Positions 15,971 to 29,541 of a stretch of DNA of 60,214 nt are shown one piece after another. Where the stretch lies: NCBI GenBank assembly GCA_012840345.1, contig DULO01000022.1, positions 1 through 60,214 of the forward strand. Direction: 5' to 3'. The notes under the pieces are model-generated. The model ran no database searches, was not told the origin of the DNA, and saw only the letters and a list, made by a program, of their open reading frames with translations. This stretch comes from Candidatus Fermentithermobacillaceae bacterium (GTDB taxonomy: Bacteria; Bacillota; Sulfobacillia; Fermentithermobacillales; Fermentithermobacillaceae). Both the position numbers and the translations under genes were made by a program. The first letter of the stretch is position 1, and each line of letters begins with the position of its first letter.

Positions 15971-16210
15971 TTACGGCTTCTGAAGCCCCAACAAGTCGTC
16001 CGCCATACGGGACACGAACTTGTACGAATCGTAGACGCCCTGGTTGTAGAAGTAAGGCGCCAGTTCTTCCGTAAAGAAGTCCAAGACAAGCGCAGCTGCT
16101 AAGTCCCCTAAGTCCTCGTCCCGTTCCTCCAGAAACCACTTCCGTATCTGCCCGATCATCTCGTCACGCTTTTCTTTGCTGAACTGGAACTGCTGGTTCA
16201 CGGGCTTCAC
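15971..16210 (-). CDS. DUF2164 family small protein
   Basis: A 79-aa protein. The pattern KRDEMIGQIRKWFLEERDED, then LGDLAAALVLDFFTEELAPY and FYNQGVYDSYKFV, is the DUF2164 signature, in which FYNQGV is nearly invariant. The function of the family is unknown. The start is a GTG at 16210 (another GTG four codons later is possible). It follows a Tyr/Arg-rich small frame after six bases, so the two are probably co-transcribed. Confidence 0.75.
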   Translation of the reverse strand: MKPVNQQFQFSKEKRDEMIGQIRKWFLEERDEDLGDLAAALVLDFFTEELAPYFYNQGVYDSYKFVSRMADDLLGLQKP

Positions 16211-16486: not shown

Positions 16487-16599
16487 GGTGACACCGCTCC
16501 GGTAGCAACACTGCTTCAGACGTAATTGGACTCCCACGTACACAGCGTCGGTTCGCGGCAGTGGCTGGTTTATCCAGGTTGTTGCTTCTGGTCGGGGGG

Positions 16600-16816
16600 A
16601 GTAGTATGAAAACTACGACTGAGCGACGGCAGTAGTTGAATTCTTACAACTCGTCGGGGCGAGTGGTACCAAAACTACAACTGGGCGACGGCAGTGGTTG
16701 AGTTCTTACAACTGGTCCGAGCCAGTGGTACGAAAACTACGACCCGGCGGCAACAGTGGTTAGAATGATGCTACTGCCCGCCGTAAGTGGTAGGAAGACT
16801 ACAACCGAGCGACTGC
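16600..16816. repeat. Array of seven 31-bp units with dyad-symmetric cores
   Basis: Seven units of exactly 31 bp start at 16600, 16631, 16662, 16693, 16724, 16755 and 16786. Each begins AGTAGT or AGTGGT, followed by a mirrored ACTAC or ACAACT about ten bases later, and ends in about ten G+C-rich bases. Two subtypes alternate (core GTACCAAAACTACAAC and core GTTGAATTCTTACAACT), so a 62-bp higher-order period is visible. Degenerate units flank both ends (about 16569-16599 and 16817-16847). The array fills most of the region 16487-16895 upstream of a lipoprotein gene. It cannot be coding, since 31 is not divisible by 3, and it has no spacer/repeat split as in CRISPR. Confidence 0.9.
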
Positions 16817-16895
16817 AGTAGTAACAATCTCGCTTTCGGCCCGGAACCGTAGCATCTTTGAGACTCCGGAATTGCCCAAGAAAGGGGCTTTGAAC

Positions 16896-18524
16896 ATGCG
16901 CAGCTTATACAGAGGCAGATCTCGCCTCGTCATTCTTATGATGGCCATGCTTTGCGTTACACTCCTTACCTCCTGCAAGCCGAAAGAACCTGATTGGAGC
17001 GAGGAGTACGTTCTCGAGCCCCATGTGATCAGGACTTACCAAAGCGAGGACTGGGTTTGGGCCGGCGACCCGTCAAGAGCTATCTCCCCTGATGGGAAGT
17101 GGCTCCTGGTCTCCCAATACGGCATGTCAAAGAGTATCCTGGCAGTGCCATTGAAGGCTGAAGAAGGACAAGACGCCCAGGGTGCCCAAAGCGGAAACAG
17201 TCAGGTACCGACCCCGGTACCAATGACTGCCGCAGCAGTGGAGTTTAAGACCGAAGCGGACCGCGCTCAATTGCTGCCCGTCGGTTGGCTGTCAGATAGC
17301 AGGTGCGTTTTCCTTGTGGAAGGATACCATGACCAACCTCCTCATAAGGGCCAAACGGGAGTGTCCGTCCTCTCTGGAAATGTAGCGGACGGTGCGGTTG
17401 AGGAAATCTCCTTTGTCCCAATCCCCGAAGGACAACTTAGAGAAGCGAGCATATTCCCGTCCTCCAACTGGCTCGTTCTCGATGCTATGGGGTCTATATG
17501 GACGGTTGACCTGGGAACCGGGGAGGCTAGAGCCTTAAGGAAGTTGGAAGTCCCTGACTACAGCGGCCTTTTCACCCCGAAGGTTTCTCCTGACGGCACA
17601 AAATGCGTCTATGCATCGGATGGGATTGGGTCCGGCCAAGGCGAGAGCGGGCTCTGCCTGCTTGATCTCAAGACGGGAAAGGAAACACTCCTAGCCAGAA
17701 ACGATGACGAGTTACACCTCTACCCCGAATGGTCACCTGATGGGAAGATGGTCGCGACTTACACTGTAGACCGACGGTCAGGAACCACAGGCGCCGCTTG
17801 GTCAAACTTCGAGATTTACCCGGGGGATGACGCGCCGATGGCTTGGGGAACGGCCATCCGCGTGCTCGACCTCAGCGGCAGTACCGTCAAAGAGATTTCG
17901 GTAGAAGACAAGATACTGGGTCTTTTCAAATGGGCTCCGGACTCCAAATCTCTCGCTTTTCTTGCCGCGCGAAAAATCCCCGCTCCGGATATCGACGGCA
18001 ACTGGGAAGTCGTGATGCCCAGTCCCGACAGCGTTGTGATATCGTCGGTGGACCCCTCCGAGCGGGCAACCACGATAGCCGATCTGGGGCAACAAGCCGC
18101 CAACACCTCAACCGGATATCTAAGTTCGTATGTAGTCGGGTTTGATCCGGAATCCAAGGGTGTGTTCTACGAGACTCTCAACGAAGAAGCTTGGTTGATA
18201 TGGTACCGCGCCAAAGGTAAGACGGGGATTCAGTCAGAGCCGGACAAACCGGTAATAGTGGCTGAAGGCCCGTGGCACCACACCCCGAGCATCCCTGCGT
18301 TTAAGGAGCAGGGCAAGAGCTTTGTCGCTTTTATTACTGGAAGCGGCCCCAAGCTCAGCATGTACCTGGCCGGTCCTACCGCGATTAGGAATGTGGCGAA
18401 CTGGGAAGGCCTAACCAGCGTGATAGTGGCCTATGATGAAAAGACGCTGGTAGTGAGCACCTTTACCGATGTCTACAGCCTATCGGTATACGAGATGCAC
18501 TCGCCGGCTAGGAGAACACCATAG
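16896..18524 (+). CDS. Lipoprotein with TolB/WD40-like beta-propeller repeats
   Basis: A 542-aa secreted lipoprotein. The signal peptide ends in LLTSC, with the acylated cysteine at residue 27. The mature part has repeated blades with the SPDG motif of TolB-like propellers: AISPDGKWLLVS, KVSPDGTKCVYAS, EWSPDGKMVATY and KWAPDSKSLAFLA. It should sit on the outer face of the membrane and bind a partner or ligand; no enzyme motif is visible. The ATG at 16896 is chosen because AAAGGGG precedes it. The larger propeller lipoprotein at 20442 is a probable distant paralogue. The 31-bp array lies directly upstream. Confidence 0.75.
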   Translation: MRSLYRGRSRLVILMMAMLCVTLLTSCKPKEPDWSEEYVLEPHVIRTYQSEDWVWAGDPSRAISPDGKWLLVSQYGMSKSILAVPLKAEEGQDAQGAQSGNSQVPTPVPMTAAAVEFKTEADRAQLLPVGWLSDSRCVFLVEGYHDQPPHKGQTGVSVLSGNVADGAVEEISFVPIPEGQLREASIFPSSNWLVLDAMGSIWTVDLGTGEARALRKLEVPDYSGLFTPKVSPDGTKCVYASDGIGSGQGESGLCLLDLKTGKETLLARNDDELHLYPEWSPDGKMVATYTVDRRSGTTGAAWSNFEIYPGDDAPMAWGTAIRVLDLSGSTVKEISVEDKILGLFKWAPDSKSLAFLAARKIPAPDIDGNWEVVMPSPDSVVISSVDPSERATTIADLGQQAANTSTGYLSSYVVGFDPESKGVFYETLNEEAWLIWYRAKGKTGIQSEPDKPVIVAEGPWHHTPSIPAFKEQGKSFVAFITGSGPKLSMYLAGPTAIRNVANWEGLTSVIVAYDEKTLVVSTFTDVYSLSVYEMHSPARRTP

Positions 18525-25851: not shown

Positions 25852-26404
25852 TTACCTGGCTGTATCGCCGTTCATAAAGCAAAGGTAGCCGCGGCCAACA
25901 ATGGGGGAATTGACGGGGTTCCCGTAGATTATCCGCAGTAGGTGCCCCAAAGTTCCTCCATGGGCCACGACGCATACGCTATCGGCAAGGTGCTTATCCA
26001 GTAGTTCGCAGTAAGAGCTCAGTGAGCGCGCATAGTGATCGATGGTTGATTCTCCTTCAGGAATCGGCTCGTAGGTCCTATACCCGCCCGGCGGCTCCGG
26101 TTGAACCCGGGCAGCTTCGACTGGAGTCAGCCCCGCAACCTTGCCCGTGTGCAGTTCCCTAAGCCGGGGATCGAGAATCACCTCCACGCCCAGTTTCCCG
26201 GCGATGATTTCCGCTACTTCGCTCGCCCGTTTGAGGGGACTCGCGAACTGGGCGTCAAAGCGATATTCCTCGAGAGCTAGCCTTTCAGCCAACAATCGAG
26301 CCTGGCCGTCCTTCTTCTGTCAACGGAGCGTCGTACCCGCCGCCTTCCACAACGCCCTCATCGTCCCCAGCCGAACGACCATGCCTAATAAGAACCAGGT
26401 CCAT
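25852..26404 (-). pseudogene. Histidine phosphatase family gene broken by one frameshift
   Basis: The ATG at 26404 follows a strong AAGGAGAG site and starts [19 protein letters not shown], with the RHG catalytic motif. After LTEEGR (codon 33) the frame shifts near 26300-26306 and would stop soon after. The other frame continues at once with [24 protein letters not shown], and a C-terminal VAHGGTLGHLL with the second catalytic histidine. Total length 553 bases is one more than a multiple of three, so a single extra base explains it. This is either a recent pseudogene or a sequencing error. Corrected length is 183 aa, normal for phosphoglycerate mutase-like phosphatases. Confidence 0.8.
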
Positions 26405-26818: not shown

Positions 26819-27221
26819 TAGGGTTCTAAGCCCGAACCGTCCCTGGACATAGGGTTATAAACCCCAATCGTCCCACGACCTAGGGCTCTGAGCCCGAACT
26901 CTCCTCCGATCTGGGGCTTTAAACCGCAACCGTCTCCCGACCTAGGGTTCTGAACCTTAGTTCTCCCTCGATCTGGGGTTCTAGATCCCAATCGTCCCTC
27001 AACGTAGGGCTCTAGACCCGAATTCTCCTCCGATGTGGGGCTTTAGACCCTAATCGTCTCCCGACCTAGGGTTTTGAACCTCAATCTCGCCCAAATCTAG
27101 GGCTTTAGACCCCAACCTCCCCTCAACTTAGGGTCCAAAACCCTATCCTCTCCCCAATTTAGGGTTTTAAACCCCATTCTTCCCGCCAATTAGGGCTCCA
27201 AGCCCTAATATCAGTTCCCGT
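26819..27221. repeat. Array of thirteen 31-bp units with dyad-symmetric cores
   Basis: Thirteen units of exactly 31 bp follow without interruption from 26819. Each starts TAGGG (or TGGGG) and has a palindromic core close to TAGGGTTTTAAACCC, then about 14 mostly pyrimidine bases such as AATCGTCTCCCGACC. Units 3 and 7, and units 4 and 8, are nearly identical, so a 124-bp higher-order repeat is also present. The core dyad is better conserved than the pyrimidine tail. It fills nearly all of the 520-base gap before cutA. It is not coding (31 is not a multiple of 3) and not CRISPR (no unique spacers separated by constant repeats). Confidence 0.93.
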
Positions 27222-27338: not shown

Positions 27339-27659
27339 ATGGGGAAGTACGGAATCGCCTTAACGACATTTGAAAGCGCGGAGCAGGCAAAGCCTGTAAT
27401 AGATGAGATCATCAGATGTAAATTGGCCGCGTGCGTCCAAGAGATCAACATAAGAAGCCATTACTCGTGGAAGGGCGAACTCTGCCATGAAGATGAGGTC
27501 CTAGTGCTGTTCAAGACCCGAAAGGAACTATATCCCGAACTGGAAAAGAGACTCCTAGAACTCCATTCATACGAGACGCCAGAGATCTTATTTGTAGATG
27601 TGGAAAAGGGGAGCGCCGCATACTTGGCATGGATAGATGAACAGACAGGTAGGCAATAA
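27339..27659 (+). CDS. cutA: CutA1 divalent-cation tolerance protein
   Basis: A 106-aa protein with the CutA signature: IIRCKLAACVQEINIRSHYSW near the start, KGELCHEDEVLVLFKT and the C-terminal SYETPEILFVDVEKGSAAYL. CutA1 forms very stable trimers of ferredoxin-like fold; it is named for copper tolerance, but its exact role is unclear. AGGAGG precedes the ATG. A TAGAAT at about 27295-27300 could be the -10 of its promoter. The 31-bp array lies just upstream, so the array could influence this gene. Confidence 0.92.
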   Translation: MGKYGIALTTFESAEQAKPVIDEIIRCKLAACVQEINIRSHYSWKGELCHEDEVLVLFKTRKELYPELEKRLLELHSYETPEILFVDVEKGSAAYLAWIDEQTGRQ

Positions 27660-28923: not shown

Positions 28924-29541
28924 ATGCGCACGCCTGTCGAGGTCCAGATCTGGAGGCTGGCGGTCCTGTTCCTGGCCGGGATCGCCGTCAGCATACTGTT
29001 CCAGGTCTACACCGCTTTTCGTGGAGTATTCCGCCCGCGGCGGTTCAGCCTCCATTTCCTTGACATCCTGTTCTCTCTGGCTATACTGGGCGCCGCGGCT
29101 GCCGTCATATTCTTGGTGAACTGGGGCGAACTGAGGCTCTACGTTCCCATTTCCCTGCTGCTTGGATTCTGGTTCAGCAACTGCTTAGTTGGGGAACTCG
29201 TCTACGCCTTGGCTTACCGGAGCTTCACCCTTGCTAAGAAGGGAGGCCGGTGGACCAAGACGAAGGTCATCGTCCCTTCTCGCCGGTTCATCTCTCACGC
29301 GAGCTCCAAGGCCAAGAACTGGCTGTTTCCTCCTATCGCGGACGAGGATGAGCCTCCTGCCGGCGAATCGCCTACTGACGAATCGCCTGGTGATGAATCA
29401 CCTCCTGACGAACGGCCTACAGCCGGACGGCCTACTGACGAGCCGCCTGCTGACGCCTCCCCTACCGGCAGACCGCCTGCCGGTGAACCGCCGGCCGCCC
29501 CTCCTCACGGTGACCCGCCAAACCCCGGACTGCCCTCCTAA
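28924..29541 (+). CDS. yabQ: Spore cortex protein YabQ with a repeat tail
   Basis: A 205-aa membrane protein. Four hydrophobic helices lie in residues of about 10-100, with VYTAFRGVFRPRR between the first two, as in YabQ, which is needed for cortex formation in B. subtilis. The last 65 residues are a hydrophilic tail of five-residue repeats such as PTDES, PGDES, PPDER and PTDEP, encoded by 15-bp DNA repeats. This tail is not part of the family core. yabP is directly upstream. A 211-base gap separates it from the next gene. Confidence 0.85.
   Translation: MRTPVEVQIWRLAVLFLAGIAVSILFQVYTAFRGVFRPRRFSLHFLDILFSLAILGAAAAVIFLVNWGELRLYVPISLLLGFWFSNCLVGELVYALAYRSFTLAKKGGRWTKTKVIVPSRRFISHASSKAKNWLFPPIADEDEPPAGESPTDESPGDESPPDERPTAGRPTDEPPADASPTGRPPAGEPPAAPPHGDPPNPGLPS

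Follow-up and report, generated by a model that had tools for sequence, protein, structure and literature searches.

Dispersed arrays of helically phased dyads in a Fermentithermobacillaceae genome, candidate cooperative sites for dimeric DNA-binding proteins

The genome of this Candidatus Fermentithermobacillaceae bacterium carries at least 21 arrays of tandem, helically phased dyads, which fall into three core families and range in size from 3 to 18 dyads. We consider it probable that these arrays are cooperatively filled sites for two-fold symmetric dimeric proteins that bind double-stranded DNA and organise or insulate the chromosome. Two arrays, one of family A and one of family B, are located in the window, that is, the whole stretch of 60,214 nucleotides that was analysed, and their coordinates and those of their neighbours are listed in Table 1.

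The family A array of the window consists of 13 contiguous units of exactly 31 bp with no indel, as the sequence-only reading had described. Its autocorrelation at 31 bp was 0.65, compared with a maximum of 0.36 over all periods from 20 to 60 bp in 500 dinucleotide shuffles. Each unit begins with a 17-bp dyad core, TRGGGYTYNRRRCCCNA, followed by a 14-bp variable tail, and the units are direct head-to-tail repeats that do not alternate in orientation; a higher-order period of 62 bp is superimposed on the 31-bp period. The palindromic core noticed earlier was also confirmed, the dyad axis lying at unit position 8 with 72% complementarity across 8 pairs (median of the other axes, 21%). The tail had been called pyrimidine-rich, which is true of this array only, since other arrays have tails that are rich in purines or mixed. 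The array was rightly regarded as non-coding, as no called gene lies inside it, and it occupies the intergenic region between the divergent phosphatase gene and cutA. A scan for promoter and terminator consensus sequences around it gave no match, and an Rfam search returned tRNAs only, with no match in the array. Elsewhere in the window, a 15-bp tandem repeat (6 copies, 29364-29455) was observed near a YabQ-like gene and is probably coding. The YabQ gene points to a Firmicute-like bacterium able to form spores.

Table 1. Coordinates in the window of the two arrays and of their flanking genes.
Feature	Position	Strand	Description
Family A array	26819..27221	.	13 units x 31 bp, core TRGGGYTYNRRRCCCNA; unit starts 26819, 26850, ..., 27191
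First dyad core of array A	26819..26835	.	TAGGGTTCTAAGCCCGA, axis at 26827, recurring every 31 bp
cutA	27339..27659	+	CutA1 (PF03091); lies 118 bp to the right of array A and bounds the divergent intergenic region on that side
Histidine phosphatase gene	25852..26292	-	PF00300; its start codon lies 527 bp to the left of array A
Family B array	~16594..16830	.	About 7-8 units x 31 bp, 21-bp dyad AGTNGTAGNAWTNCTACNACT
DUF2164 protein gene	15971..16210	-	Left neighbour of array B
WD40-like PD40 protein gene	16938..18524	+	Right neighbour of array B at 108 bp

The link to cutA drawn in the sequence-only reading proved not to be specific, the array being only one of at least 21 in the genome; cutA, when tried as a marker for the array in relatives, is seldom retained there. 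A whole-genome pattern search with the two-unit core of family A yielded 7 arrays and 68 units, on contigs C19, C73, C74, C77, C111 (the window), C116, and C120, and this core was matched, with at most two mismatches, 58 times in the forward sequence and once in the reversed control. Family B, built on a different 21-bp dyad (AGTNGTAGNAWTNCTACNACT) again with a 31-bp period, comprises 11 arrays and 127 scored units; the search gave 53 forward matches against none in the control, and revealed 10 arrays besides that of the window. Family C has a core resembling TAACTACYGCCAGGCAACACTTA and a period of 33 bp, with at least 27 units in at least three arrays (C23, C124, and C33) and remnants in C77, and its period was found at L157:1056-1393, L154:1183-1545, L161:9606-9825, and L059:217-303. 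When 334 kb of the genome, in part DNA picked for holding arrays, were scanned with no motif specified, the 31-bp period was prominent, with 9 arrays once masked loci were set aside. Higher-order periods of 62 bp and 93 bp occur among the arrays. Several arrays are found at contig ends, and the genomes appear to be drafts (136 contigs in this one). At L163:3025-3284 (G000:C16), a further tandem array of 31-bp units has a weak dyad and possibly a fourth core.

When arrays are compared with each other, identity reaches 69% (A) and 64% (B) in the cores, whereas in the tails it is only 31% (A) and 34% (B), for a composition-based chance level of 26% and 31%, respectively. Substitutions in the tails number 277 (A) and 446 (B), whereas only a few indels were counted, and the internal spacing is exactly 31 bp in nearly all A and B intervals. 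As the tails differ between arrays, the arrays are not recent copies of one another. The sites are also almost confined to arrays: 63 strict B cores were found inside arrays and none outside in the 604 kb scanned, and A cores occurred outside arrays at three loci in the whole genome, about the control level, one of which (C50:12108) is followed by a degenerate second copy at a distance of exactly 31 bp. It is thus likely that single sites have little function or affinity alone. Absence from close relatives together with a lack of core conservation had been proposed as grounds for rejecting the array; the A and B cores were not found in 13 other genomes of the family, yet the A core is strongly conserved across loci, and the array therefore stands.

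Base changes in one arm had been thought to be matched in the other, so that the dyad would be kept by selection. Our counts contradict this idea, since complementary changes were no commoner than in shuffled data. At family A pairs 5/11, 7/9, and 1/15, Watson-Crick combinations were present in 36, 24, and 13 of the 68 units, for a shuffled expectation of 33, 31, and 22, and the variable pairs of family B were near the shuffled level, except for a small excess at the outermost pair (p about 0.03). One of the examples given earlier, TGGGGCT...AGACCC, actually contains a C/A mismatch. A slight Watson-Crick excess was seen at a few pairs in genus g5, a genus with 53-bp arrays, for which shared ancestry could account. 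Each half-site varies, as Y or R, independently of its partner, which favours recognition of double-stranded DNA by a symmetric dimer over RNA hairpins. The transcript with 13 hairpins suggested earlier was not recovered either, as the predicted RNA folds differ from this structure on both strands.

Sister genera devoid of the A and B cores bear phased arrays of their own with other cores. These include a 31-bp array with the dyad CAGAnnGTNACnnTCTG in G001 (p = 0.008), a 32-bp period with GCNGAANNNTTCNGC in G002, a single-contig genome in which clear arrays lie at 1.008 and 1.034 Mb, and an array with a 33-bp period in G006. The core of genus g5, TGGTGCACNNNGTGCACCA, was matched 162 times in the forward sequence of G010, compared with 8 times in the control (at most two mismatches). 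Among the neighbouring spacings in g5, 202 of 236 are exactly 53 bp, and there are exceptions near 34, 43, 63, and 95 bp, in steps of about 10.5 bp. The 34 spacings other than 53 bp fold best at a period of 10.4-10.6 bp, with a phase of about 0.2 bp; at 10.5 bp, R was 0.63 (nominal p about 2e-6), or 0.54 (p = 0.001) with spacings of 51-54 bp left out, these p-values being optimistic because some spacings come from internally duplicated arrays or blocks and the intervals are not independent. An alignment of the orthologous arrays L253 (G004) and L236 (G007) showed 10-bp deletions between dyads, and L253 itself mixes spacings of 33/34, 43, 52/53, and 62 bp. These results indicate that helical phase is kept rather than length, and the quantised spacing in g5 provides the strongest evidence, from sequence comparison, that one face of the helix is probably conserved. 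The proposal that all dyads face the same side of the DNA, initially made from a single array, is thus much strengthened by the relatives. The helical phasing of dyads expected of a cooperative nucleoprotein array was therefore found; tandem duplication of 31-bp or 62-bp blocks can, however, also pass on exact spacing, and the 33-bp period exceeds three turns of 10.5 bp by 1.5 bp.

In g5, array loci are common to more than one species, and in the clearest cases the proteins encoded on either side are about 80-92% identical, whereas about 0.15 shared loci are estimated to arise by chance. Comparison of L246 and L265 revealed the contraction of an array between species. L248 (G004:C43) and L265 (G010:C100) are near-identical over the array and its left flank, and the right flank diverges abruptly within the array, which may reflect recombination at the array, transfer, or contamination. 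The livF neighbourhood (C73 here, and G007/G010) was set aside as a position shared between genera, because about one such coincidence is estimated to be expected by chance, and the glycosyltransferase neighbourhood of G004 was discarded as it contains a single dyad only. A small contig, L148 (G005:C20, 5616-7702), was also seen to hold a mixture of tandem arrays, with periods of 31, about 15, and 27 bp.

The 21 arrays examined in this genome are not overlapped by any called gene, one abutting a gene edge by a few bases, and all those with called flanks are intergenic. Where both flanks were called, the gene pairs are divergent (6), tandem (10), or convergent (1). The distance from an array to a start codon is never below 108 bp, with gene starts taken from a simple home-made gene finder. 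The flanking proteins have no common function and include a chromate transporter, sigma-70, ThiF, an amidohydrolase, glycosyltransferases, MatE, peptide deformylase, and MarR/TetR, among others.

In the model that we propose, each dyad would bind one dimer, and adjacent dimers would be whole helical turns apart (three turns for 31 or 33 bp, four for 42-43 bp, five for 53 bp, and six for 62-64 bp), which would place them on the same face of the DNA. Neighbouring dimers would touch, so that the array would fill cooperatively into one large nucleoprotein body, and such arrays may anchor, loop, or insulate chromosome segments. Dimer binding and cooperativity, which the sequence-only reading had also envisaged, are predictions from the sequence. 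The unrelated neighbours, the distance from start codons, and the rarity of single cores make an architectural role likely, although this role, which we infer only from the absence of a shared gene function, is speculative, as is the idea of a dedicated protein family.

The main rival to an architectural or insulating role is that the arrays are bound by cooperative transcriptional regulators and act as enhancer- or silencer-like operators on downstream promoters. We regard this as rather unlikely. It agrees with the finding that 16 of the 17 arrays with both flanks called have a start codon downstream of them on at least one side, 108-780 bp away, and with the presence of regulators among the neighbours (MarR/TetR at C120, AraC at C116, and sigma-70 at C74). 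However, the neighbouring genes do not belong to a common pathway, and in all 10 tandem pairs the array is closer to the preceding stop codon than to the next start codon. Isolated operators at the promoters of related genes, the hallmark of an ordinary operator regulon, were not observed: the 604 kb scanned contained no isolated B site, and the genome-wide search gave almost no isolated A site.

Somewhat less probable still is that the arrays are selfish, satellite- or REP-like repeats that have no role in the host and owe their spread to a transposase or to unequal recombination, the dyads being recognition sites of the amplifying enzyme. The 62-bp and 93-bp higher-order periods are typical of tandem amplification, the cores are lineage-specific, an array has contracted between species (L246 and L265), and several arrays are at contig ends. 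Such an origin would agree with the higher-order periods but gives no reason for quantised helical spacing, nor does it fit with array positions kept between species or with tail differences that exclude recent copying. REP/BIME elements (e.g., BIME-2; PMC2817692) resemble the arrays in being extragenic palindrome clusters in many copies with a proposed protein-binding and chromosome-organising role, and extragenic imperfect palindromes do exceed 100 copies in this genome (about 68 units in family A, 127 in B, and no fewer than 27 in C). In contrast, REP/BIME alternate in orientation and have a cognate RAYT transposase, for which no match (Y1_Tnp, PF01797) was found in this genome while the E. 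coli positive control was detected. In addition, their palindrome is maintained by complementary mutations (PMC2817692), a type of change not seen here above the shuffled expectation. The rigid helical spacing and the several unrelated cores per genome further distinguish the present arrays.

A partition-system centromere (parS-like), or another array for replicon maintenance, appears highly unlikely. In plasmid centromere and iteron arrays (parC, parH, and parS clusters), dimers cooperatively occupy sites that stand in tandem and in helical phase, an architecture that the present arrays resemble. However, the arrays described here are found at about 20 chromosomal loci and in three core families, and no par genes were found among the flanking genes, nor any adjoining rep genes. 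One ParB gene and one weak ParB-like gene are both located on contig C75, which holds no A or B array. In the single-contig relative G002, the clear arrays are mid-arm by GC skew (the contigs of the genome studied here are unordered). Lastly, tandem RNA hairpins in a transcript, serving as a 3' UTR element, sponge, or small RNA, are the least credible of all, for although the dyads could form stems, the array A region is predicted to fold more stably than shuffled sequence on either strand (z about -4.5), and many arrays lie just past stop codons, the arms do not covary, the predicted fold is not one of 13 hairpins, at least six arrays lie between divergent genes, no match to an Rfam covariance model was obtained, and helical spacing is irrelevant for RNA.

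Known bacterial nucleoid proteins use scattered single sites or bind non-specifically. The palindromic sites of the dimeric proteins RacA (ram), Noc (NBS), MatP (matS), and SlmA (SBS) are dispersed singly over the chromosome, whereas the dyads form rows of 3 to 18 here, with almost no single sites. CRISPR had been dismissed from the outset, and correctly so: CRISPR arrays combine near-identical repeats, unique spacers, and cas genes, whereas the cores here are degenerate, the tails within an array are related, and no cas domain was found in array-flanking genes. A CRISPR array, GTTTTGAGCCTACCTATGAGGGATGGAAAT, was observed at the start of the single-contig genome G002 (L132, C1:859-1335 and further). 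The LTRR repeats of heterocystous cyanobacteria, which are cited in PMC2408588, are also tandem and intergenic and have no assigned function. Their sequence is unrelated to the array cores. The LTRR unit is about equal in size to that of the arrays, and we know of no described dyad phasing for it. A pattern scan of named genomes gave three matches, which are ordinary, near-identical 31-bp tandem repeats in actinobacteria and unrelated, and the array pattern was not found in viral contigs. Within the open-access literature, no described element with such an architecture was found, in line with the initial impression that no element of this kind had been reported.

As this genome contains three or more core families and sister genera have others, the binding proteins probably form a small family with lineage-shifting specificity. 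More tentatively, and with our opinion nearly evenly balanced, the arrays may represent an undescribed class of bacterial element, consisting of dispersed phased dyad arrays with several core families per genome, co-evolving dimeric architectural proteins, and cores that change between genera while the layout of the arrays persists. The arrays yield a clean prediction, opposing 10-bp to 5-bp insertions, and their sequence could serve as bait for the protein. If the proposal is true, such elements would be the bacterial counterpart of satellite-plus-binder systems. With phased dyads at about 20 intergenic loci per genome, whose helical phase persists as spacing and core sequence change, the family would then provide a natural experiment in how DNA is packed cooperatively, and in how a DNA-binding protein and its hundreds of sites switch specificity together.
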